64,000 nucleotides of DNA from NCBI RefSeq assembly GCF_001645125.1, contig NZ_LXKA01000132.1, positions 1 through 64,000 of the forward strand, given 5' to 3'. Source of the stretch: Paraburkholderia ginsengiterrae. Its GTDB lineage: Bacteria > Pseudomonadota > Gammaproteobacteria > Burkholderiales > Burkholderiaceae. The notes under the pieces are model-generated. The model searched no databases, was not told the DNA's origin, and was given only the letters and a program-made list of their open reading frames with translations. Positions 5,590 through 43,921 of the stretch are shown one piece after another; the first letter of the stretch is position 1, and each line of letters starts with the position of its first letter. The position numbers were made by a program, and so were the translations under genes.

Positions 5590-5680
5590 CTGGAGAGCCG
5601 GATGCGCTGGGAGGTGCATGTCCGGTTCGGGGAGGAGAAACAGGGAAATAGTTCGACTACGCCCTGTTTCTTACTCCACT
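5590..5680 (+). ncRNA. Group II intron 3' end (domains V and VI)
   Basis: 5594-5630 matches the conserved domain V hairpin pattern: GAGCCG at one arm, a short purine-rich tip, and TCCGGTTCGG at the other. It is followed by a second hairpin (GAGAAACAGGG pairing with CCCTGTTTC at about 5636-5671) in the position of branch-point domain VI. The intron therefore ends around 5680, and the next bases are the 5' part of an IS6-type transposase frame, marking the 3' exon. Confidence 0.6.
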
Positions 5681-8819: not shown

Positions 8820-9296
8820 TCACAAATCCAGCCGAAGGCGCGGTCCTACTTCAACGAAACCCTCAGAGCGATAGAAGTTTAGTGATCGACTCCAACGCGG
8901 CTGGTGAGGAGCGCCAACGTCCATCCGCTTCCACCCCCGCGCACGCCCGAGCTCGGCAGCGCTCTTCACAAGCATCGCGGCCACACCCTGTGATCTGAAG
9001 TCGGGCATCACGTACAGCTCGGTTATCTGGCCAAAGATGCCGCCAGCGAATATGGCGACGGCTTCCGTGAGCATCAGAACACCTATGGCCCGACTCCCGT
9101 CGAGCGCCAGCAGTCCGAAGCTTCGCTCAGTTTCTGCCAATACATCGCTTATCGACTCGGAGCGGTACTGCGGCACCATCGCTCCGTCACGGAGTTCATT
9201 GAAGAGCGCCTTCACCAGATTGGCCACAATAGGCGCATCATCGGTGGTCACCCGGCGAACTGTCACAGTCTCCAAACTGCAATGGTCACTCGTCAT
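8820..9296 (-). CDS. GNAT-family N-acetyltransferase
   Basis: 158 aa, ATG at 9296 with a near-perfect AGGAGGT 6 nt upstream. GNAT fold: VTVRRVTTDDAP at beta-1, ITELYVMPDFRSQGVAAMLVKSA containing the acetyl-CoA pyrophosphate loop (R-S-Q-G-V-A), and a C-terminal NFYRSEGF segment. Such enzymes acetylate amino groups of small molecules or proteins. It is divergent from an XRE-cupin regulator across 98 bp, which may control it. Its place between prephenate-type enzymes and an aminotransferase suggests a non-standard amino acid substrate, by inference only. Confidence 0.85.
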   Translation of the reverse strand: MTSDHCSLETVTVRRVTTDDAPIVANLVKALFNELRDGAMVPQYRSESISDVLAETERSFGLLALDGSRAIGVLMLTEAVAIFAGGIFGQITELYVMPDFRSQGVAAMLVKSAAELGRARGWKRMDVGAPHQPRWSRSLNFYRSEGFVEVGPRLRLDL

Positions 9297-9394: not shown

Positions 9395-10045
9395 ATGCCA
9401 CGAACGCCTGCAAACTCAGCCCCTCAGAACGCTCCGGAAATCGAAACCGAAAAGCAGCGCGACCCTGATGTAGAAAAGGTCTCGAGGGCACTCGCTGCCC
9501 AGATCCACGCCTTCCGCACTTCGGCCGGCATCGCGTCGGGGACCTTGGCTAAAATGGCTGGCATCTCTCATTCGATGCTCTCGAGAATCGAGAAAGGAAC
9601 GGCCACCCCATCGATCGAGACGCTCACGCGAATCGCGAACGCATTAGGCAAGCCCGTGTCCCGATTCTTCGTCGACCAGAGCGAACGGCATGACTGCTCG
9701 TTCGTGCCAGCAGGCGGCGGCGTGACGGTCGACCGAGAGGGCTCGTCTTTTGGCCATATCTATACTTTGATTGGCCACGTTCTCTCGGGGAATTTGTCGG
9801 TTGAACCGTACATCGTGACACTCGACGAGAACTCGGAGCCATGGTCAACTCATCAAACTACCGGTCTGCAGTTCCTGCACGTTCTTGAAGGCAGGATGAA
9901 GTATCGCTACGCGAATCGCCTCTACGACGTGAAGCCTGGCGACAGCCTCCTGTTCGATCCAAATGCCGCCCACGGTCCGGAAGAAATCAACAGCGTCCCA
10001 GTCCGGTTTCTCGCTGTCTTTTTCAACATTAGGGAATACAGCTAG
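9395..10045 (+). CDS. XRE-family transcriptional regulator with C-terminal cupin domain
   Basis: 216 aa. The HTH_3 domain lies at about residues 35-90 (IHAFRTSAGIASGTLAKMAGISHSMLSRIEKGTATPS), followed by a cupin_2 beta-barrel (LQFLHVLEGRMKYRYANRLYDVKPGDSLLFDP..AHGP). Regulators of this architecture, such as PuuR, sense amino acids or polyamines and control adjacent transport and catabolic genes. It is divergent from the GNAT gene and convergent with the aminotransferase. It is the only regulator in this block, so it is the likely controller of the transporter and aminotransferase set. Confidence 0.88.
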   Translation: MPRTPANSAPQNAPEIETEKQRDPDVEKVSRALAAQIHAFRTSAGIASGTLAKMAGISHSMLSRIEKGTATPSIETLTRIANALGKPVSRFFVDQSERHDCSFVPAGGGVTVDREGSSFGHIYTLIGHVLSGNLSVEPYIVTLDENSEPWSTHQTTGLQFLHVLEGRMKYRYANRLYDVKPGDSLLFDPNAAHGPEEINSVPVRFLAVFFNIREYS

Positions 10046-36418: not shown

Positions 36419-38518
36419 CTATTGGTTAGGCACCTTAAGCTCTAGCGCTGAAATAATCCAGTCGCGTTCAAACGGAGTGAGTTCAGCAGAACCCGACATT
36501 GCGAGTTCAGCAAGCCGGTCTGTAAGCGCTGCCTTACTCTCTCCGCCGTGGAATCGCTCCGATATCTGAATGGGAATCCCTTCCTCATCAAGGTTTTTCA
36601 GTTCTTCCGCAAGAAACCACCGACTCAATGCCTGTACAAAAAGACTGTAGTTCGCGTGAAATCCTGCTGATTTTACGAAAGCCTCGACGAGCGAAAACCA
36701 TTGGGGCAAACCGTATTCGCATGCGCGGAGGAAGCGAAAAACATTGTCGTAGCTCTCCGCAGACCCTGTGTATTTCGCATCGTATAAATTCAAGAAGGTC
36801 TTCATCCCTTTGGCTTTCCGCAATTCACTGACGAAATACGTCAGCGATTTCGCCGTATAAGCCCCGAATTCACTGGCTGGGCGAACGGCGCTGATCACCT
36901 CGACAACAGCTTGAATCTCCGGGTAGCGGGGCACGCCAGTCCATACCAAGGCGGCGCCGCTATCGAGGGCGCTCTGCACCTTCGTCTTCAGTCGTTGCGC
37001 TACCTCAAGGCCCAGCGAGGCTGCAAGACGCAAATCGGGCCAGTCCAGAGCAAGGGAGTGGCGTACGGCTGCAATTCGGTTATCGGCAGTGGGCTGAGTG
37101 AGAGGTTCATCCAGTTGCACGACGTAATCTAGAGGGGCATCCTCTTCGTCAGCAAATAACGTTGGAGACACCTCCATGTCTTCGTGCACCGGTGCTTCGT
37201 TAAACAAGAAGACCTTCCCAACATGGTGTTGGCCTAGACGTCCAGCACGACCTCTTATGTTCGAGTACGTAAAGAAATCATACGGTGCTTTGTTGATTTT
37301 CTTGTCGTAAATCAGGACCGTCTTCGCGGCGGTGTTGACGCCCTCAATGAGAGTTGAGGTACAGAACAAAACCGGCAACGTACCTTCGTTGAACAGCCGG
37401 ACCATTTGCGACGCAATCGCTCGGGGTAGCCGGCCATGATGAACGCCGAAGCCGAAGCGCACCGTTTGGATGAGCGACCAGTTGGCCCCAACGTTATCCG
37501 AAAGCCACTTCGCAAAAGCGTCAGCGTAGTCCGAGACCGCCATCCCCTCGGCGGCTTTTCCCGCAATCTTGTTTGCACGGTCTGGTGACGAGACGAACAC
37601 CAGCGCTGGCCAATTGCCATCTTCGCCAATTTCCTCGAGCAATCGCTCCTCTTTGCCGTCAATTTGGCGGAGGTCGTAGGTATCCACCGCAACCGTCGAG
37701 AATTTGGTCCTCAAGAACTCAAATTTCCATTTTGCCCCCTCCGCGAACCGCACGTTGTCAATGTTCGGGCCGAGAAAGAAGAACTGTCGAGAGCATTTCA
37801 AAAGCTTGTACACGGCCGCATTCAGTGTGATGCACCGGTCGTCCCTGCGACTCGGGTCGAGTTTGTAGAACTCGTCTACGACGGTAAGGTCTAACTTGCC
37901 GAGGTCAGTCCGATGAATCAAACGCTCTTGAGTCCCCAGAAAGATTGTCGGCGCATCGCCAGATGCCTCTTCGGAAGGATGCATGACGACGGTAAAGCGA
38001 CTGTCGAATCTACTACGTAAGCGCCGACGAAACTCATCGAGCAACGCGATAGTGGGCAGTACGATCGCGACGCGGGTGTATCGCCCGGAAGCGAGGAGTG
38101 CGTCAATTAGTAGGCTTTTCCCGAAGCTCGTGGGCGCACTCAGGATTAAATTCCGACCTGCGAGCAGTTCATTCAACGCATCAACCTGTTCGCGGTGGAG
38201 AGTGATGCCGTCAAGCTCTGGCACTGTCACTGACTCCGCCAGCAAGAGGTCAGGCTCCGACGCCACCGCCTTGTCGATGTAGTTCCACAACCCTGTTGCT
38301 CTAGCGAGCGCACTGAACGGCTCCCGGTACGATGCCAGTTCCTGTCGGTCCTCGATGAGCTTCGCGAGCCTTGGAACAATGTCCAGAGTGCTCGCGTCGT
38401 CGCTTTCTTCGCGTTGAATTGCGCTAGCCGCACCTCGCAGAATTTCGAAAACTACACCTTTCAAATCGCTGCCGCGGAGCGAAGAAATCTGATTCCATTG
38501 TTCGCCCGAGATTTGCAT
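36419..38518 (-). CDS. hamB: Hachiman defence helicase HamB
   Basis: 699 aa, ATG 38518, 2 nt after the hamA stop. Superfamily 2 (Ski2-like) helicase: Walker A SAPTSFGKS (residues 127-135), DEFY box at D215-E216, LIEGVNTAAKT, and motif VI SNIRGRAGRLG. The long C-terminal helical part is family-typical. In Hachiman anti-phage systems HamB senses or unwinds damaged or invading DNA and controls the HamA nuclease. All helicase motifs look intact. Confidence 0.88.
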   Translation of the reverse strand: MQISGEQWNQISSLRGSDLKGVVFEILRGAASAIQREESDDASTLDIVPRLAKLIEDRQELASYREPFSALARATGLWNYIDKAVASEPDLLLAESVTVPELDGITLHREQVDALNELLAGRNLILSAPTSFGKSLLIDALLASGRYTRVAIVLPTIALLDEFRRRLRSRFDSRFTVVMHPSEEASGDAPTIFLGTQERLIHRTDLGKLDLTVVDEFYKLDPSRRDDRCITLNAAVYKLLKCSRQFFFLGPNIDNVRFAEGAKWKFEFLRTKFSTVAVDTYDLRQIDGKEERLLEEIGEDGNWPALVFVSSPDRANKIAGKAAEGMAVSDYADAFAKWLSDNVGANWSLIQTVRFGFGVHHGRLPRAIASQMVRLFNEGTLPVLFCTSTLIEGVNTAAKTVLIYDKKINKAPYDFFTYSNIRGRAGRLGQHHVGKVFLFNEAPVHEDMEVSPTLFADEEDAPLDYVVQLDEPLTQPTADNRIAAVRHSLALDWPDLRLAASLGLEVAQRLKTKVQSALDSGAALVWTGVPRYPEIQAVVEVISAVRPASEFGAYTAKSLTYFVSELRKAKGMKTFLNLYDAKYTGSAESYDNVFRFLRACEYGLPQWFSLVEAFVKSAGFHANYSLFVQALSRWFLAEELKNLDEEGIPIQISERFHGGESKAALTDRLAELAMSGSAELTPFERDWIISALELKVPNQ

Positions 38519-38520
38519 GA

Positions 38521-39381
38521 CTAATCCTCGATGTTCAAGGCTTTGAGTCGTTTGTCGAACGCCTTCGCGACTTTGTCCTTCGACTCCAACGGAACATAGA
38601 TGAGATGCATCTTGATTTTGCTGGGTAAGCCGGATTGGTCTATCTTGTCGCGCAATTCTGCCAACTCAGAATACACCCTTTCGATATATTCGGCAGTATG
38701 GCTTTTGTGTGTTTTCACTGCATCGCTATCGCATGCGATACAAACAGGAAACACCGCGTTCTGAAATAGCGCATCAATTGAGGTCTGGCTAGCCAACAAC
38801 CTCCGAATCTTCTCGGCGTGTGGGAGCGTCTGTGAAACTTGTGGACCCAGTATGAATTTCTCTCGCTTTAAGAATCCCGCGTCAATGTGCTCCTTCACTG
38901 ACTTGATTGCAGCCGAAATGGCCGCGACACCGCTCTTGTAGAACTTTGATTCACCGAGCCAGATTTCAAACGTGGAGTCGTTAACGTATCTGATGTGCGC
39001 CATGTCGAACGACTTGACGACATCGTTTGAGGCCGTCTTGTAGAAGACACGTGGGGCAAGTGGAATCGTCTTGAAGTAGTCGCGGCAAATTGCATGCAGC
39101 GTAATTTCACCGAGCTCCCCGCGTTTGTTGTACTCCTTTGTGGAGTACACACGAGCGGCAGCTTCTTTTAGCCGAACATAGATGTTGCCATGATTGACGT
39201 TCAGCTCTTCCTCTTTCAGAGCGTAGTCGGGTAGCCATTCGATGATGTGCTCGGCGAGCGCTGAGCATCGCCATTGACTTATCTCAAAGCCCGCGCAGTA
39301 GCTGTCGTGCTGCCATGGCGAGTCTTCAGAGTTCAACTGAAGAAGGAGTCGCGCGGGAACGCTGTCGTAGACGTTCACCAT
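38521..39381 (-). CDS. hamA: Hachiman defence effector HamA (DUF1837)
   Basis: 286 aa, ATG 39381. DUF1837 nuclease: KRGELGEITLHAICRDYF (E92), KSFDMAHIRYV (D126) and WLGESKFYKSG (E144-x-K146) make a PD-(D/E)xK-type site. HamA holds HamB in an inactive complex and degrades DNA when released. Size and order (hamA then hamB) are standard for Hachiman. First gene of the two-gene operon. Confidence 0.88.
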   Translation of the reverse strand: MVNVYDSVPARLLLQLNSEDSPWQHDSYCAGFEISQWRCSALAEHIIEWLPDYALKEEELNVNHGNIYVRLKEAAARVYSTKEYNKRGELGEITLHAICRDYFKTIPLAPRVFYKTASNDVVKSFDMAHIRYVNDSTFEIWLGESKFYKSGVAAISAAIKSVKEHIDAGFLKREKFILGPQVSQTLPHAEKIRRLLASQTSIDALFQNAVFPVCIACDSDAVKTHKSHTAEYIERVYSELAELRDKIDQSGLPSKIKMHLIYVPLESKDKVAKAFDKRLKALNIED

Positions 39382-39906
39382 GCGGTGGTTTCGGCCGCAT
39401 TAAGTGCGCTAGGGCTCGCCCCCAATTTCGCCTGATTCTCGGTGGAAAGAAAAGCGACGGCGCGGTATTTTAGATGTTTCATTCTCCCCTCTGCTGCTCG
39501 AATGAGACAGGGCAGCTCTTGTTCGGCGCCAAGTCCTATGCGTCGCTGATTTTGGGTCGTAATGCGCTAAAGATCAACAGGTTGCCGGTATCTTTTCGAC
39601 AACACCTGTAGAACTGCTTGCGGCAGCGGAAATGCAGCAGCGCCGAATTGGTAAATCAATGCCCGTTGCATCGATTGCGTCCGGTGAGGGCAGATGCGCG
39701 ATGCCGCCAATCGCTGCGCTAGCTTCTCAAATGACCGAACCGGAGGGAACAAATGGAAACCCGTCGAACAGCTGGCAACAAAAACCGTCGCAGGACTTTC
39801 CGGCTCAGGCGGCGGAACGATTGAAGTAGGAGCTGACGCGCTCGGATTGCGGCGAGATGCCACCATCGCCGAACTACGCTGCTGTGCCCGTCAGCCAAGA
39901 CACGGG
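39382..39906. other. Intergenic region, nothing recognised
   Basis: 525 bp between hamA and the coiled-coil gene's end. It should carry the hamAB promoter on the minus strand. No gene. Confidence 0.35.
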
Positions 39907-40593
39907 CTATTTCACCCGAATCGGTATCCGATATCCACCGTTGAATGGTGCGGTTTCATCCACGCGGATGCACGGCACAGAGCGCCCGTCGTCGAACCGG
40001 CACGATGTGATGTCGAGGCGTCCGCCCCTACTATCAAGGTATGCGACCCGCTGTTCAAGTTCCGTCTTCTGCTGTTCGAGGTCCGTCTTCTGCTGTTCGA
40101 GGTCCGTCTTCTGCTGTTCGAGGTCCGTCTTCTGCTGTTCGAGGTCCGTCTTCTGCTGTTCGAGGTCCGTCTTCTGCTGTTTGAGGTCCGTCTTCTGCTG
40201 CTCAAGGCGGTGTACAGACCACGCGGTCACCCCGTACCACAAAGCCATCGCGGCTAGACTCGCCAATAGTGCGGGGGCACAAATGCGTAGTATCGAGAAC
40301 GTAGCCGCACGCTCAAGCGCTTTCGTTGCCTTATCGGCTGCGAGATTCGCCGACTCGACGCGCGAAGTGAGCGTCGTTGCTGCAGCATCGATGGTTGTGG
40401 CCAGCTGGCTGTTAACATCGGCGACAATTGCTTTGGGCATGGACCGACTCTGCTGCTCTATGGCCGTAGTCAAGGAGTTCATCGCTTTTACAGCATCGGC
40501 CGTCAACTTCTGGTCACGGATTGCCGCCTCTAGCAATGTTCCCAGCGCGTCATATGCGTATTTCATACCGCCGACTTCACCATTCATGTTCAT
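39907..40593 (-). CDS. Membrane-anchored coiled-coil protein with 21-bp/7-aa tandem repeats
   Basis: 228 aa, ATG 40593, overlapping the upstream gene's end by 17 nt. The N-terminal helical domain (about 100 aa, AADKATKALERAATF) is followed by one membrane helix (LRICAPALLASLAAMALWYGVTAW), then eight near-identical heptads LEQQKTD forming a coiled coil, and a C-terminal domain with two cysteines (CRFDDGRSVPCIRVDE) that binds or folds outside the repeat. No family recognised. Translationally coupled to the PD-(D/E)xK-like gene in a defence island, so possibly a membrane sensor or effector. Confidence 0.7.
   Translation of the reverse strand: MNMNGEVGGMKYAYDALGTLLEAAIRDQKLTADAVKAMNSLTTAIEQQSRSMPKAIVADVNSQLATTIDAAATTLTSRVESANLAADKATKALERAATFSILRICAPALLASLAAMALWYGVTAWSVHRLEQQKTDLKQQKTDLEQQKTDLEQQKTDLEQQKTDLEQQKTDLEQQKTELEQRVAYLDSRGGRLDITSCRFDDGRSVPCIRVDETAPFNGGYRIPIRVK
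40064..40206 (-). repeat. 21-bp in-frame tandem repeat
   Basis: About seven tandem copies of CTTCTGCTGTTCGAGGTCCGT (plus-strand reading, period 21 bp), nearly identical at the DNA level. They encode the LEQQKTD heptads. Copy number is likely to vary by slippage. Confidence 0.9.
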
Positions 40594-41302
40594 AATCGTG
40601 GTCTATGCTTTTTTTTAAAGACAGTTGGCGGCTTCTTACCGCGTGCTCACGCTTTAACTCCATAGCTTGCTGTTGCACTCTCTCGAAGTACGCCTCGCGA
40701 ACCAAACTATGGTCCAAGAGCAGGTCTCTTATGTCCGGAACGAGCACGTAGCGGAGTCCGTGCTCTTGACTGAGATTTATGAGCAGTCCGCCAGATGCCC
40801 CCTGGAGGCCACCGTGCGAAACCGATACCAGCGCCAGATAGGCCTCATATGAGGCGCGCGTGGCTTCGTCAATCACTTTCGATACAGCATCCTTGGCGAC
40901 TGACGACGTGAAGCGCTCTATTGTCGTGGCGGGAACCGTCTCGTCCACGAAGTCGATATACGGCACCACTGTGGAAACAAAGGCACCTTCGGCTTCCGAT
41001 GTCTCGATGTACCAATGGATCTCGCGAGAAATGGCTAGCATGTGCTTGTCTGTGCCCAAAGCGCGGGATAGGACTTCACGCTTTGTTTCTTCTTTGATTG
41101 AGTCGTTTTTCTTGCGTTTGAACTCAATCAGTCGCGTTACACCTGTGTTTGCAACCATCACGTCACCCAGACGTTCGTCCAGCGGCGTCTGCTGCATTAA
41201 GTTCACGCACATTGGCCGGACTGACCCTTGGCTTTCCTGCCCAACGGTAAGCCCGAGGCTGTACAGGAAATTTCCTATAACGATGTTCTCGTACGGTTCC
41301 AT
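40577..41302 (-). CDS. Hypothetical protein with PD-(D/E)xK-like motif
   Basis: 241 aa, ATG 41302. Residues 42-64 read DERLGDVMVANTG, VTRLIEFKRKK: D47 followed by E60-x-K62 on the next strand, a nuclease-type PD-(D/E)xK signature. The C-terminal half is helical and charged. It overlaps the coiled-coil gene by 17 nt. No named family is recognised. Between Hachiman and a reverse transcriptase, it probably belongs to a defence or mobile module. Confidence 0.6.
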   Translation of the reverse strand: MEPYENIVIGNFLYSLGLTVGQESQGSVRPMCVNLMQQTPLDERLGDVMVANTGVTRLIEFKRKKNDSIKEETKREVLSRALGTDKHMLAISREIHWYIETSEAEGAFVSTVVPYIDFVDETVPATTIERFTSSVAKDAVSKVIDEATRASYEAYLALVSVSHGGLQGASGGLLINLSQEHGLRYVLVPDIRDLLLDHSLVREAYFERVQQQAMELKREHAVRSRQLSLKKSIDHDYEHEW

Positions 41303-41647: not shown

Positions 41648-42952
41648 CTAAGTCCTTCGGGTTCCGGCCCGCGAAGCCACTAATTTCGCAAATAACATAT
41701 CGAAGTTCGTGTCGTCCAGCAGACTCATTCCCATTAGACGCTGACGGTCCGCTGCGCTGAGCAAACTCGTCTTTGCTCGCCATAAACGCCGGAAATCGCC
41801 CACTTTCTCCGCAACATCTGCATCCAGCTGTCGGAAGATGCGGTGGTCCGTACAGAAAGAGAACGCTGCACCCCAGGCGCGGACCGTGTTGGAAACGCGC
41901 CAGAGCGTGCTGAGCAGCGTCGGGTCGGAGGCTAACGTCATCGGCTCCGACGTGCCGGTCTTCAGATGTCGCTGACTCGTGAGCGCTTTGTTGCAGAGAG
42001 CGTCCACCTTTGCTAGCAACGAGCCGCGGGCACGCTTCCCCGGCGAGATGGCCTCTGGAGATATGTCGCAGCCAAGAAAAGAGAATCCCTTCTTGGTTTC
42101 CCCCGCCGCAGCCTTTGCCGAGGCTGCAGGACTACCCTTTGTCGGCGGGTCGTAAGCATCAAGCCCAAATCGCTTGAGTTCATGTTTGAGCTGCTTCAAA
42201 CCTTTCAACGCACGACTCCGATTGGGCGCAAAAATTATCAGGTCGTCGATGTAGCGTACCGACATCATGCCGCCCGTATTTAGCTGCTCGTCTATGTCGT
42301 GGAGAAGCAAGTTGCACAGAAGCGGCGACAGACAAGAACCTTGTGCGACGCCGCGAGACGCCAGCGGAAAAATATCCTTGTGCTCGCGCAGCTCGGCAAG
42401 GTTATCGAGTTCAACATTGACTGCCCGCGTCAGCAGCGCGTCGAACTCCGGCTCGTCCGTGTGCTTCGTGACGATTGCCAGCAGGTCCTCTTTTGGAGCT
42501 TGCGTAAAAAAATCCTTGATGTCGGTTCTGACGTAGTACTGGTATCGAATGGTGCCTTCGTAGGTTTGGGCAATAGCCTTCGCGACCCCGCCGTCCTTTA
42601 CGCCACCGTGATTCCACGCCTTTTTCTGGATACTCTGAACGAAAGGCAAGTTAGTCAGCACATCAAGAATCGCTCGCTGTACGACACGGGACGCAATCGG
42701 CGCAATCACAATGGGCCGCCTAGCCGTCTTGCCGGGCTTCCGGGCGGCGACGCCGCGAGCCGGCGGAAACTCGAAGGTCCCGGCTACCAGTTGTTTGCGA
42801 AGGTCGCTGATATTCTGCTCGAGCCGCAGCTGAAATTGCTTCGCTTCGTCCCGGGTGCTTTCGGAAGTGGAAATCAGGGCGTTGGCGAGCACTAAACGCG
42901 CTGCTTTGCGGAGGTTCGGTTTGCGGCAAACCTTCCTGTACAGGATACCCAT
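41648..42952 (-). CDS. Reverse transcriptase, unknown-group/defence type (YIDD)
   Basis: 434 aa, ATG 42952. RT domain with RRPIVIAPIASRVVQRAILDVL, motif A VRTDIKDFF (D144), motif B QGSCLSP (204-210), catalytic SVRYIDD (Y234-D237) and motif D/E region KKGFSFLGCDIS. It lacks the maturase/HNH domains of group II introns and the VTG and NAxxH signatures of retrons. QGxxxSP excludes the diversity-generating class. The C-terminal 140 residues are helical. It is preceded by a duplicated structured sequence at 43018-43479 and sits beside Hachiman, so a defence RT that uses an upstream RNA template is the best guess. Confidence 0.8.
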   Translation of the reverse strand: MGILYRKVCRKPNLRKAARLVLANALISTSESTRDEAKQFQLRLEQNISDLRKQLVAGTFEFPPARGVAARKPGKTARRPIVIAPIASRVVQRAILDVLTNLPFVQSIQKKAWNHGGVKDGGVAKAIAQTYEGTIRYQYYVRTDIKDFFTQAPKEDLLAIVTKHTDEPEFDALLTRAVNVELDNLAELREHKDIFPLASRGVAQGSCLSPLLCNLLLHDIDEQLNTGGMMSVRYIDDLIIFAPNRSRALKGLKQLKHELKRFGLDAYDPPTKGSPAASAKAAAGETKKGFSFLGCDISPEAISPGKRARGSLLAKVDALCNKALTSQRHLKTGTSEPMTLASDPTLLSTLWRVSNTVRAWGAAFSFCTDHRIFRQLDADVAEKVGDFRRLWRAKTSLLSAADRQRLMGMSLLDDTNFDMLFAKLVASRAGTRRT

Positions 42953-43017
42953 TCTTTTTGCTTCTTATGTTGGGTACGGGGCCGCATTGGTAAGCTTGCC
43001 CCAAGCCCGAGGAGTCA

Positions 43018-43133
43018 GTTTCCTGCGGGCGCGCCGATGCTATGGCTGACCCGTCCGGCGAGACATTGCTGCACGCCGGGCGCTCCGTGCGAATTTGCGG
43101 TTCCGGAGGCCGGACCGCTCAGCACGAGGCACA
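43018..43133 (-). repeat. 116-bp structured direct repeat, copy 1
   Basis: Differs from copy 2 (43364-43479) at one base only (43117 G versus 43463 A). Contains several potential stems on the minus strand: GGTCCGG/CCGGAACC, CCGGCG/CGCCGG and GCACG/CGTGC. It lies 66 bp upstream of the reverse transcriptase start. Confidence 0.85.
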
Positions 43134-43363
43134 AGAACAAAGCGCAAGCGGACACGCCGCCGCCGACGCGCCAACCGCTGGCACGTTTTTGCTTTCGGCC
43201 TGAAACGTCACCTTTGCCTCCAATTCTAGGGTTTTTGCCCGAGCTGGCAAGCGCCGCGAAGCGTCAAGGCCGCCCAAGCCTGAAAATAAAGTCTACCGAC
43301 CGTCCAATGCGACCGCAAAACGGCTGAAGCTACGGTGTTCCGGCTGACTGCGAGGCTTGGGCT

Positions 43364-43479
43364 GTTTCCTGCGGGCGCGCCGATGCTATGGCTGACCCGT
43401 CCGGCGAGACATTGCTGCACGCCGGGCGCTCCGTGCGAATTTGCGGTTCCGGAGGCCGGACCACTCAGCACGAGGCACA
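43364..43479 (-). repeat. 116-bp structured direct repeat, copy 2
   Basis: Offset from copy 1 by exactly 346 bp. The flanks just outside the two copies are partly inverted to each other (CCCAAGCC..GTCAG near 43000 and CTGAC..GGCTTGGG near 43345). A candidate non-coding RNA or a duplicated element end upstream of the RT gene. Confidence 0.85.
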
Positions 43480-43618
43480 GAAGAACTGCCGTATTGATAC
43501 CAGAATTTGATTGCGCGTACAACGACGGCCCAGAACAGCAGCAGCCGGGTACAGCATGTGCCCCATCAAGCCAACCACTGCAGTCGTTTAGCGAGTTCGC
43601 ATAGAAGGCATCGCTGTC

Positions 43619-43921
43619 ATGGCTATGGAAACATTCAATACTAACGAGGATGAATTCGGCCGAAAGTTGGCGCTCACTGACATCGAGGCAGCAGCACGAG
43701 ACCTGCAGATTTCTGACGCCAGTATCGTGCGCTTGCGCCGAGCGATGGACCGGGTTGGTTGCGCGCAAAGGCTACTGGAAACAGTGAAAGTCGGAAGCGA
43801 CGGCGCGAGCGACGAAGAGACAGCGCTGCGGGTGCGAGCTGCCGTGGAGTTGCAGGCAAAGGGGTGGCCGGGGGACTATCCGGCCGGGGCGGTGGAGTGG
43901 CAGTTGGTGAAGCAACGGTGA
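43619..43921 (+). CDS. Hypothetical protein
   Basis: 100 aa, ATG 43619, no clear ribosome site. Charged, helical: LALTDIEAAARDLQISDASIVRLRRAMDRVG may be a helix-turn-helix-like segment. A competing frame on the minus strand overlaps. No family recognised. Confidence 0.4.
   Translation: MAMETFNTNEDEFGRKLALTDIEAAARDLQISDASIVRLRRAMDRVGCAQRLLETVKVGSDGASDEETALRVRAAVELQAKGWPGDYPAGAVEWQLVKQR

Follow-up and report, generated by a model that had tools for sequence, protein, structure and literature searches.

A repeat-flanked leader upstream of a G2L4-type reverse transcriptase gene in Paraburkholderia ginsengiterrae and its possible role as a template

Introduction

Diversity-generating retroelements (DGRs) contain a pair of ~120-nt repeats, one of which is 3'-terminal in a reading frame close to the reverse transcriptase (RT) gene, and their template and variable copies differ at adenines. 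VTG and NAxxH are the names of retron RT motifs. In the DRT2 system, a non-coding RNA is encoded with an RT and a never-ending open reading frame (ORF) is produced (PMC11100668), while unknown-group (UG) RTs of type UG17 correspond to DRT10 (PMC12632851). Group II intron-like 4 (G2L4) RTs, for which YIDD is a distinctive feature (PMC4244168), are described as DNA-repair enzymes; structures have been solved, a role in double-strand break repair has been published, and microhomology-mediated end joining occurs in vitro (PMC12337344). The present study concerns an RT gene and the duplicated sequence on its 5' side in a 64,000-nt stretch of Paraburkholderia ginsengiterrae DNA (RefSeq GCF_001645125.1, contig NZ_LXKA01000132.1, positions 1 to 64,000), which is called the window as a whole.

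A sequence-only reading of this DNA had proposed a defence-type RT with an adjacent structured RNA that fits no standard class. The observation itself was confirmed and its interpretation was partly supported. The RT was assigned to G2L4, and the duplicated unit was found to bound a larger leader with a homologous core in eight divergent lineages, which suggests from sequence comparison that a dedicated nucleic-acid partner has evolved alongside the RT. Our best explanation, which we hold tentatively, is that this leader (first repeat, core, second repeat, and hairpin) may be the RT's own cis-encoded template or guide RNA, with the direct repeats permitting template switching. If this is true, copying of the leader would give the G2L4 family an unsuspected job beside DNA repair. 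A search of the main texts of PMC12337344 and PMC13015716 found no repeat-flanked leader, cognate RNA, or locus architecture (the 2022 repair paper of Park et al. was outside the scope). The arrangement may have been overlooked because the locus with an RT near the crystallized enzyme (L115) has one repeat and no core. Loci are identified below by L numbers and genomes by G numbers where they need to be told apart.

The reverse transcriptase belongs to the G2L4 class

41648..42952, minus strand: G2L4-type RT ORF, 434 aa, with YIDD (from the ORF, homology, and tree)

The ORF was present as first read, including D144, QGSCLSP (204), and YIDD (234). Its full-length match in the PDB by phmmer was the solved G2L4 RT (residues 2-414, E 2.9e-64), and the second-best family was GsI-IIC (E 7.8e-16). 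In a maximum-likelihood tree of 27 RTs, the window RT and 18 others formed a single G2L4-type clade (support 100/99), separate from an outgroup of eight rows (group II, RT-Cas1, and three further RTs) that are few and partly long-branched. Judged by homology and phylogeny, the window RT is a member of the G2L4 class. It stands apart from the group II and RT-Cas1 rows, and the claim that no standard class fits did not hold.

The absence of retron and group II hallmarks was borne out. VTG and NAxxH were not found in the window RT, the retron_St85 score was 42.7 of 235 bits, and no retron RNA family occurred among the Rfam matches of the window or of 42900-43700. Pfam detected RVT_1 alone, with no further domain. 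The group_II_RT_mat score was 122.6 bits against a cut-off of 300, there was no En domain, and Intron_gpII matched the whole window once (5593-5679) and 42900-43700 not at all up to E 1, which leaves no intron RNA around the RT. The best UG group in PADLOC was UG17 (113 bits). Since the crystal-like G2L4 RT matches UG17 equally well (122 bits), this is not a sign of UG17 membership.

In the numbering of the solved enzyme, the window RT keeps G117 (RT2a), F149/F150 (RT3), P213, R190, K313, S28, and S30, of which G117, F149/F150, and P213 are invariant columns in the alignment of G2L4-type RTs. It has N, S, T, and S at RT0-loop positions S24 and S28-S30. The RT3a plug is two residues shorter than in the solved enzyme and retains R190 with D182E, I200L, R191E, and I202S; elsewhere, T306 is replaced by A and R309 by S. 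The C-terminus extends at least as far as that of the solved enzyme. A laboratory change, R190E/R191E, was reported to raise G2L4 activity (PMC12337344). RTs of the window clade naturally have E at R191 and S at I202 in the plug. Because of the natural E at R191, we speculate that self-inhibition may be weaker in the window RT than in the solved enzyme.

Among 145 genus genomes, 7 had the RT at E 1e-30, a count that includes the window genome and one fragment; so did 5 of 399 genomes of the family, all from the same genus as the window. At E 1e-60 (alignment A5), 2 of 185 genomes of the class had it, one of them the window's own, as did 8 of 398 genomes from the genus to which Pseudomonas sp. 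K18 belongs. A set of 130 G2L4 RTs sharing 50% identity or more is mentioned in PMC12337344. A pattern scan of GTDB species genomes (alignment A2), which detects exact matches to two short peptides only, gave 12 loci. Paraburkholderia madseniana (G055) contains an RT remnant (L014 9330-10088, L056) covering residues 205-434 with one in-frame stop.

A repeat-core-repeat leader precedes the RT gene

43494..43522, minus strand: P1, weak promoter-like TTGTAC-17-TATCAA directly before R1 (promoter scan)
43364..43479, minus strand: R1, distal direct-repeat copy, 116 nt (repeat comparison)
43134..43363, minus strand: core, flanked by the repeats; aligns with those of other G2L4 lineages
43279..43305, minus strand: conserved core block GGACGGT..TTATTTTCAGG (core alignment)
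43223..43250, minus strand: Pcore, sigma-70-like TTGCCA-16-TAGAAT (promoter scan)
43217..43221, minus strand: GGAGG, possible ribosome-binding site (sequence)
43179..43192, minus strand: motif GCAAAAACGTGCCA, then a possible small hairpin by eye (core alignment)
43018..43133, minus strand: R2, proximal direct-repeat copy, 116 nt; identity to R1 ends at the TGA stop 43015-43017
42953..43017, minus strand: leader segment between the R2 end (stop 43015-43017) and the RT start codon (comparison with relatives)
42977..43004, minus strand: hairpin GGGGC...GCCCC in this segment (register assigned by script and by eye rather than by formal covariance testing)

The 116-bp unit reported twice on the 5' side of the RT was verified. 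R1 and R2 are identical at 115 of 116 positions with a start spacing of 346, and their sole difference is C against T on the RT strand, in agreement with the reported absence of the DGR hallmark. The window genome contains no third copy, the next-best match being 29 nt; the unit was thus ruled out as a dispersed genomic repeat. On the RT strand, both copies folded more stably than shuffled sequences (z -2.74 and -2.29), and on the other strand hardly so (z -1.08 and -0.01). An Rfam scan of 42900-43700 gave two matches, both under the gathering scores, i.e., no known RNA family. The unit had been put forward as a candidate RNA. A conserved unit does stand beside the RT, but it is only the repeated terminal element of a longer R1-core-R2-hairpin cassette. 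The idea that the unit by itself is a covarying RNA was dropped.

The upstream sequence has been conserved together with the RT gene in relatives, so the outcome that the sequence-only reading had named as a refutation, a lack of such conservation, did not occur. In each of the six Paraburkholderia loci whose RT is intact, the unit lies immediately on the 5' side of the gene; four loci have two copies and two have one. In nine same-clade pairs, the repeat (R) was 94-100% identical and the RT gene 68-91%. The values for the window and P. eburnea (L054) were 96.2% over 106 positions and 69.0%, respectively, the single repeats of L054 and L055 being cut 10 nt off register; those for L059/L061 were 94.0 and 76.9%, and those for Pseudomonas aeruginosa and L094 were 100 and 78.3%. 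The leader segment was 98.5% identical to that of L010, 80.6% to L054, and 72.6% to L055 (62 positions in the last two, with the same cut). The full core was present in 4 of 145 genus genomes, which are exactly those with the RT and both repeats, and five more had core pieces of 27-37 nt only. One pair within GGG.CCC of the hairpin is C-G in Paraburkholderia, P. aeruginosa, L094, and L093, A-U in L058, U-A in L057 and L064, and U-G in L115.

The layout is shared among G2L4-type loci

Near-perfect direct repeat, homologous core, direct repeat, and RT followed one another in 16 of 22 G2L4-type loci with an RT start (L096 and L097, with RTs of 24-25%, and the fragment L014/L056 were left out). 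The hosts were Paraburkholderia, Pseudomonas, two metagenome-assembled genomes (MAGs), another gammaproteobacterium, and viral contigs. The loci represent eight divergent lineages, namely Paraburkholderia, P. aeruginosa with L094, the L059 group, L058, L057, L064, L093, and L095; because the lineages share descent, they are not eight origins. The layout is present on every main branch of the RT tree.

Repeat lengths were 115-138 nt except in L093 and L058, which have shorter or gapped repeats, and the R1-to-R2 period, 346 nt in the window, was 321-485 nt in the other loci. The repeat pairs were as follows:

Paraburkholderia: window 115/116, P. sartisoli 116/116, G121 114/116, G106 115/115
P. 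aeruginosa plasmid record 132/132; IMG/VR contig L094 137/138
L059 group: L059 134/134, L061 133/133, L111 132/134, L112 134/134, L113 133/133
MAGs: L057 116/116, L064 132/135
IMG/VR contig L095 133/133
L093 59/59 plus 22/22; L058 41/42 plus shorter pieces (gapped)

The two copies of a locus showed 0-2 differences over 115-138 nt in each of the 11 loci counted; the numbers were 0 of 116 in L057, 0 of 133 in L095, and 3 of 135 in L064. In contrast, repeats diverge between lineages (59% identity between P. aeruginosa and L059). Near-identity within a locus together with divergence between lineages points to concerted copying.

Thirteen cores of 220-383 nt aligned and share three conserved pieces: GGACGGT..TTATTTTCAGG, the sigma-70-like site, and GCAAAAACGTGCCA, the last of which is altered in L058 (four As) and absent in L095. 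In the cores of L059, L060, and L111-L113, a ~106-nt tandem duplication doubles the CAAAAACGTGCC motif. Among 2.9 million IMG/VR viral contigs, the sole match to two Pseudomonas-form core patterns was the L094 contig, which has a G2L4 RT, and among these contigs the Pseudomonas form of the GGACGGT..TTATTTTCAGG block occurred in L094 only. The window leader had no match in plasmids or phages, and the P. aeruginosa leader matched its own record only among plasmids and nothing among phages.

As a control, the regions upstream of other ORFs starting with ATG (374 segments from the same contigs, many of the ORFs mechanical) were scored. Eight reached a repeat score of 39 or more, seven of which were spaced 21-179 nt. 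The one control pair with G2L4-like spacing (371 nt) comprises partial relatives of the Paraburkholderia repeat in L067 (G251, another genus). These diverged partial units (9208-9265 and 9579-9636) lie 371 nt apart within a larger direct repeat, no RT was recognized near them, and the pair may be a decayed R1-core-R2 cassette.

Among the other G2L4-type loci, L054, L055, L062, and L115 (4 of 22) have a single repeat and no core, with the RT intact; L063 has an assembly gap within the repeat, and the contig of L060 starts within the core, 425 nt upstream of the RT start. No core was found elsewhere in the genomes of L054 and L055. Since the single-repeat loci are nested in the RT tree, the form with two repeats looks ancestral, and loci with one would have collapsed in the genome or in the assembly.

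The single-repeat loci bear on the strongest rival explanation, a phase switch or regulatory duplication. Homologous recombination would keep R1 equal to R2, and deletion between R1 and R2 would remove the core with Pcore and leave the RT expressed from P1; single-strand annealing at a break, possibly promoted by the G2L4 RT, is an alternative deletion route, and the RT would do DNA repair only. L054, L055, L062, and L115 (upstream sequence, R, leader, and RT without the core) resemble such products, and the end joining that G2L4 RTs perform in vitro is also consistent with this explanation (PMC12337344). Furthermore, Pcore is a better promoter match than P1. It is the sole promoter-like site found in 42950-43700 (0.2 expected), and the corresponding core site, with a 15-16-nt spacer, lies 19-46 nt before GCAAAAACGTGCCA in 14 of 16 loci and exceeds base-shuffled sequence (p<0.05, hand-set weights) in 9 of 16. 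At the P1 position, a -10-like hexamer ends 2-15 nt before R1 in all 16 loci. However, a switch alone does not explain why R of L054 and L055 is 95-96% identical to that of the window, why the core and hairpin are conserved, or why solo copies with a common 3' edge occur in genomes without the RT (see below). We regard it as unlikely.

Reading frames in the repeats and the core

43015..43185, minus strand: reading frame 'RA..hydrophobic..R2..stop', signal-peptide-like by eye (frame analysis)
43226..43363, minus strand: 'ext', extension of the R1 frame into the core with 45 open codons (frame analysis)

Inspection by eye showed a hydrophobic segment in the N-terminal part of the small frame that ends in R2 in all readable lineages. 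The homologue of this frame in P. aeruginosa is annotated as a 64-aa hypothetical protein (WP_124169534), and this small ORF matched its own record only in plasmids, a search with the joined N-R-ext sequence not having been made. In 11 of the 15 loci read, R2 matches R1 as far as the stop codon of this frame and no further (offset 0-1 nt). The match ends before the stop in L064 (11 nt), L095 (14 nt), and L093 (51 nt, or 29 nt counting the second repeat block) and runs 5 nt beyond it in L094; L058 was unreadable.

This edge is what a DGR-like donor and recipient pair would give, with R1 as the template copy and with R2, which would encode the C-terminus of a small secreted or membrane-bound protein, being rewritten by the RT from R1 RNA without mutagenesis. 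The near-perfect identity of the copies and a repeat length in the DGR range also fit. However, the copies lack adenine-directed differences (1 of 116 in the window), and R of L054 and L055 has stayed close to that of the window though its frame context is lost. We think it quite improbable that the locus works in this manner.

A DRT2-like gene made by reverse transcription is also conceivable. The C-terminal part (ext) would be stored upstream and the N-terminal part (N) with a promoter downstream, with R in common, and circular or concatemeric cDNA would join N-R-ext into an ORF of ~90-140 codons that is absent from the linear genome and whose product would act against phage or cell. DRT2 provides a precedent (PMC11100668). 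Read in the R2 frame, R1 is stop-free for 45-127 codons into the core (15 loci), and the R-ext frame is the longest of three in six of seven lineages (not L093), which reflect shared descent rather than independent trials. The joined frame has 91-140 codons in 10 of 13 joined loci (six lineages) and is stop-free over the tested span in L064. In a six-frame comparison of 28 distant-lineage pairs, 14 gave any match; 7 of these 14 had their best match in the N-R or the R-ext frame, including all three best matches above 30 bits.

The coding tests also contain results that speak against such a gene. L093 and 7 of the 14 pairs do not favor the frame, and an antisense frame was nearly equal for the window and L057 (33.9 against 38.9 bits for the best frame). 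A valid joined frame was not obtained in L094 (the join overran the stop) or L060 (cut contig), and the frame of L058 was without an anchor. In the small frame of the window, the RA codons are not preceded by any in-frame ATG, GTG, or TTG; GTG and TTG occur only further in, and the start nearest GGAGG, a GTG, lies in another frame. Pfam gave no match for any of seven reading-frame pieces. A frameshift at the A-run, leading from the ribosome-binding-site-coupled frame into the N-R frame, was rejected because the run has only five As and no real slippery heptamer.

Differences in ext at codon positions 1, 2, and 3 numbered 15, 23, and 19 for P. aeruginosa/L059, 17, 21, and 22 for P. aeruginosa/L061, 19, 19, and 24 for the window/L057, 62, 124, and 71 for five Pseudomonas sequences (badly aligned stretches included), and 6, 0, and 6 for four Paraburkholderia sequences, without a clear third-position excess. 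The bias in N and R is at most weak. The counts for N were 17, 21, and 35 (five Pseudomonas), 7, 8, and 8 (P. aeruginosa/L059), and 6, 3, and 3 (Paraburkholderia), and those for R were 16, 13, and 25 (P. aeruginosa/L059), 16, 8, and 16 (five Pseudomonas), 14, 17, and 19 (window/L057), and 0, 0, and 6 (Paraburkholderia). Overall, we consider the DRT2-like gene improbable. A wider form of the idea, equally improbable, is that G2L4 RTs, beside repairing DNA, drive a widespread system that keeps a gene in circularly permuted form between terminal repeats and assembles it only by reverse transcription, strands being transferred across the repeats. The predicted product would be a short protein whose N-terminal part includes a hydrophobic segment. 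Assembly would rely on the known strand-annealing activity of the RT, and cDNA captured on rare occasions by the chromosome would account for the solo repeats. Because the coding tests cut both ways, we retain this as a bold reading and not as the best one.

The weak third-position excess in N (five Pseudomonas) and R (P. aeruginosa/L059) would also suit an ordinary 5' leader, in which a regulatory region that includes a small upstream ORF is conserved and the duplication is old and incidental, with no template role. A promoter-like site, a possible ribosome-binding site, and a hairpin are all typical of leaders. However, the duplication is kept at the same place in eight divergent lineages with copies that are near-identical within and diverged between them, and we judge this the least probable explanation.

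Solo copies in genomes without the RT

Solo copies of the unit were found at seven loci in six Burkholderiaceae genomes without the RT, four among the 145 Paraburkholderia genomes and two more, from two other genera, among 399. They stand in seemingly intergenic stretches, and tblastn detected no RT in the four 2-3-kb stretches tested around them. In the RT-bearing genomes of the genus, every scored copy sits at the RT locus; six candidates per genome were scored, and further weak copies are possible. No L059 repeat was seen outside the RT locus in the six Pseudomonas genomes searched.

In four of the seven loci, the 3' edges of the solo copies (query positions 235, 229, 227, and 233) lie just past the stop codon at 224-226, and the 5' edges of these copies vary (72, 108, 98, and 108), as do those of the others (77, 99, and 163). 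A common 3' edge with variable 5' edges is what 5'-truncated reverse transcripts would give. The G017 site measures 334 nt between conserved flanks, as compared with 82-187 in eight relatives; because of this difference, the unit was likely gained there by insertion.

A model for copying of the leader

In the preferred explanation, the leader serves as template. We infer transcription from P1, template use, the priming site, strand transfer, and the role of the product as follows. The transcript would start at about R1, run through R1, core, R2, and hairpin, and continue into the RT message. The RT would bind the leader, most likely at the hairpin just after R2. Synthesis of cDNA would start at the 3' edge of R2 and proceed towards R1, and cDNA reaching R1 could re-anneal to R2 and continue, which would yield circular or head-to-tail cDNA with a 346-nt period in this locus. 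Such recopying would keep R1 equal to R2 within a locus while lineages differ, and captured 5'-truncated cDNA would be the origin of the solo units.

Several points weigh against template use of the leader. The RT of L115, which is very near the crystallized, active enzyme (741 bits; window RT 221), is intact without the core, and the core is therefore not needed to keep the RT; the other single-repeat loci are of the same kind. G2L4 RT is reported to favor annealed primers of 2-5 nt and to disfavor those of 10 nt or longer (PMC12337344), and this preference sits badly with a 116-nt strand transfer. Homologous recombination alone can homogenize two close repeats. P1 is weak, since the site at its position beats shuffled sequences (p<0.05) in only 1 of 16 loci. 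The covariance check that the sequence-only reading had recommended gave nothing within the unit (covariation term +0.5; a double change in 1 of 37 pairs; 10 sequences), and the hairpin position beside GGG.CCC is unpaired in the L059 group and L095. The 3' edges of three of the seven solo copies, the more decayed ones, lie off the common edge (208, 173, and 221). Among three RTs outside the G2L4 clade, L096 and L129 have no upstream direct repeat, but L097, a distant RT with 24% identity, has one (77 nt, spacing 203).

Neighbourhood and other features of the window

38521-39381: Hachiman HamA (profile match)
36419-38518: Hachiman HamB (profile match)

The reported proximity of Hachiman is real, HamA and HamB lying 2.3 kb from the RT with two ORFs of >200 aa between. 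Hachiman was rejected as a conserved partner because no DNA match to it occurred in six fetched same-genus RT loci (16-20 kb each). In P. sartisoli, the nearest locus, the match to the window stops at 39758. The intervening ORFs (39907-40593 and 40577-41302), one of which has a run of the 7-residue repeat LEQQKTD, lie inside a stretch 96% common to P. sartisoli, whereas Hachiman is not common. Leader frames aside, no neighbor gene was common to Paraburkholderia and distant loci (ORFs of at least 60 aa, 5 kb around the RT, 15 loci).

A recombinase-like gene lies downstream of the RT in the opposite orientation in P. aeruginosa (L015 11414-11995), L058, L059, and L094, and is annotated as such in L015 only. 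In L015 (NZ_CP131792.1, an 847-kb record called a plasmid), the G2L4 region is in a ~8-kb stretch with an integrase and an inovirus-type gene, flanked by chromosomal-looking genes (nadA, dapA, bamC, and purC). The only Rfam matches at gathering scores in the whole window were a group II intron domain (RF00029, 5593-5679), far from the RT, and a phage-type C4 antisense RNA (RF01695, 56882-56973).

Comparison with known systems

The locus resembles DGRs in having a ~120-nt repeat pair, one copy of which ends a reading frame near the RT. It differs in that the copies are essentially identical and show no adenine mutagenesis.

The solved G2L4 RT (Park et al. 2025, PMC12337344; PDB 9d5x/9d4s) shares full-length homology, YIDD, GG in RT2a, FF in RT3, S28/S30, and R190 with the window RT. 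The window clade differs from it by the shorter plug, R191E, I202S, S24N, T306A, and R309S. DRT10 corresponds to the best UG cross-match in PADLOC and also has its non-coding RNA upstream (PMC12632851). Its template is a 9-nt segment of a loop, and the portions of that source used here describe no long repeats, in contrast to the ~116-nt repeats of the window. SLATT, the partner gene of DRT10, was not found among six window proteins scanned.

DRT2 also has a non-coding region 5' of the RT, but its RT is of another group and its jumping depends on 3-nt ACA motifs instead of repeats of about 116-138 nt (PMC11100668). The DRT2 ORF is stop-less, whereas joined frames of the window type end in a stop in all joined lineages but L064; in the window, the stop follows ext, and a DRT2-type stop-less ORF is not present. 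Furthermore, the joined frame here is in the sense of the RT transcript, while the neo transcript of DRT2 is antisense to its non-coding RNA (PMC11100668). Repetitive cDNA made by template jumping would be the principle common to DRT2 and the leader described here.

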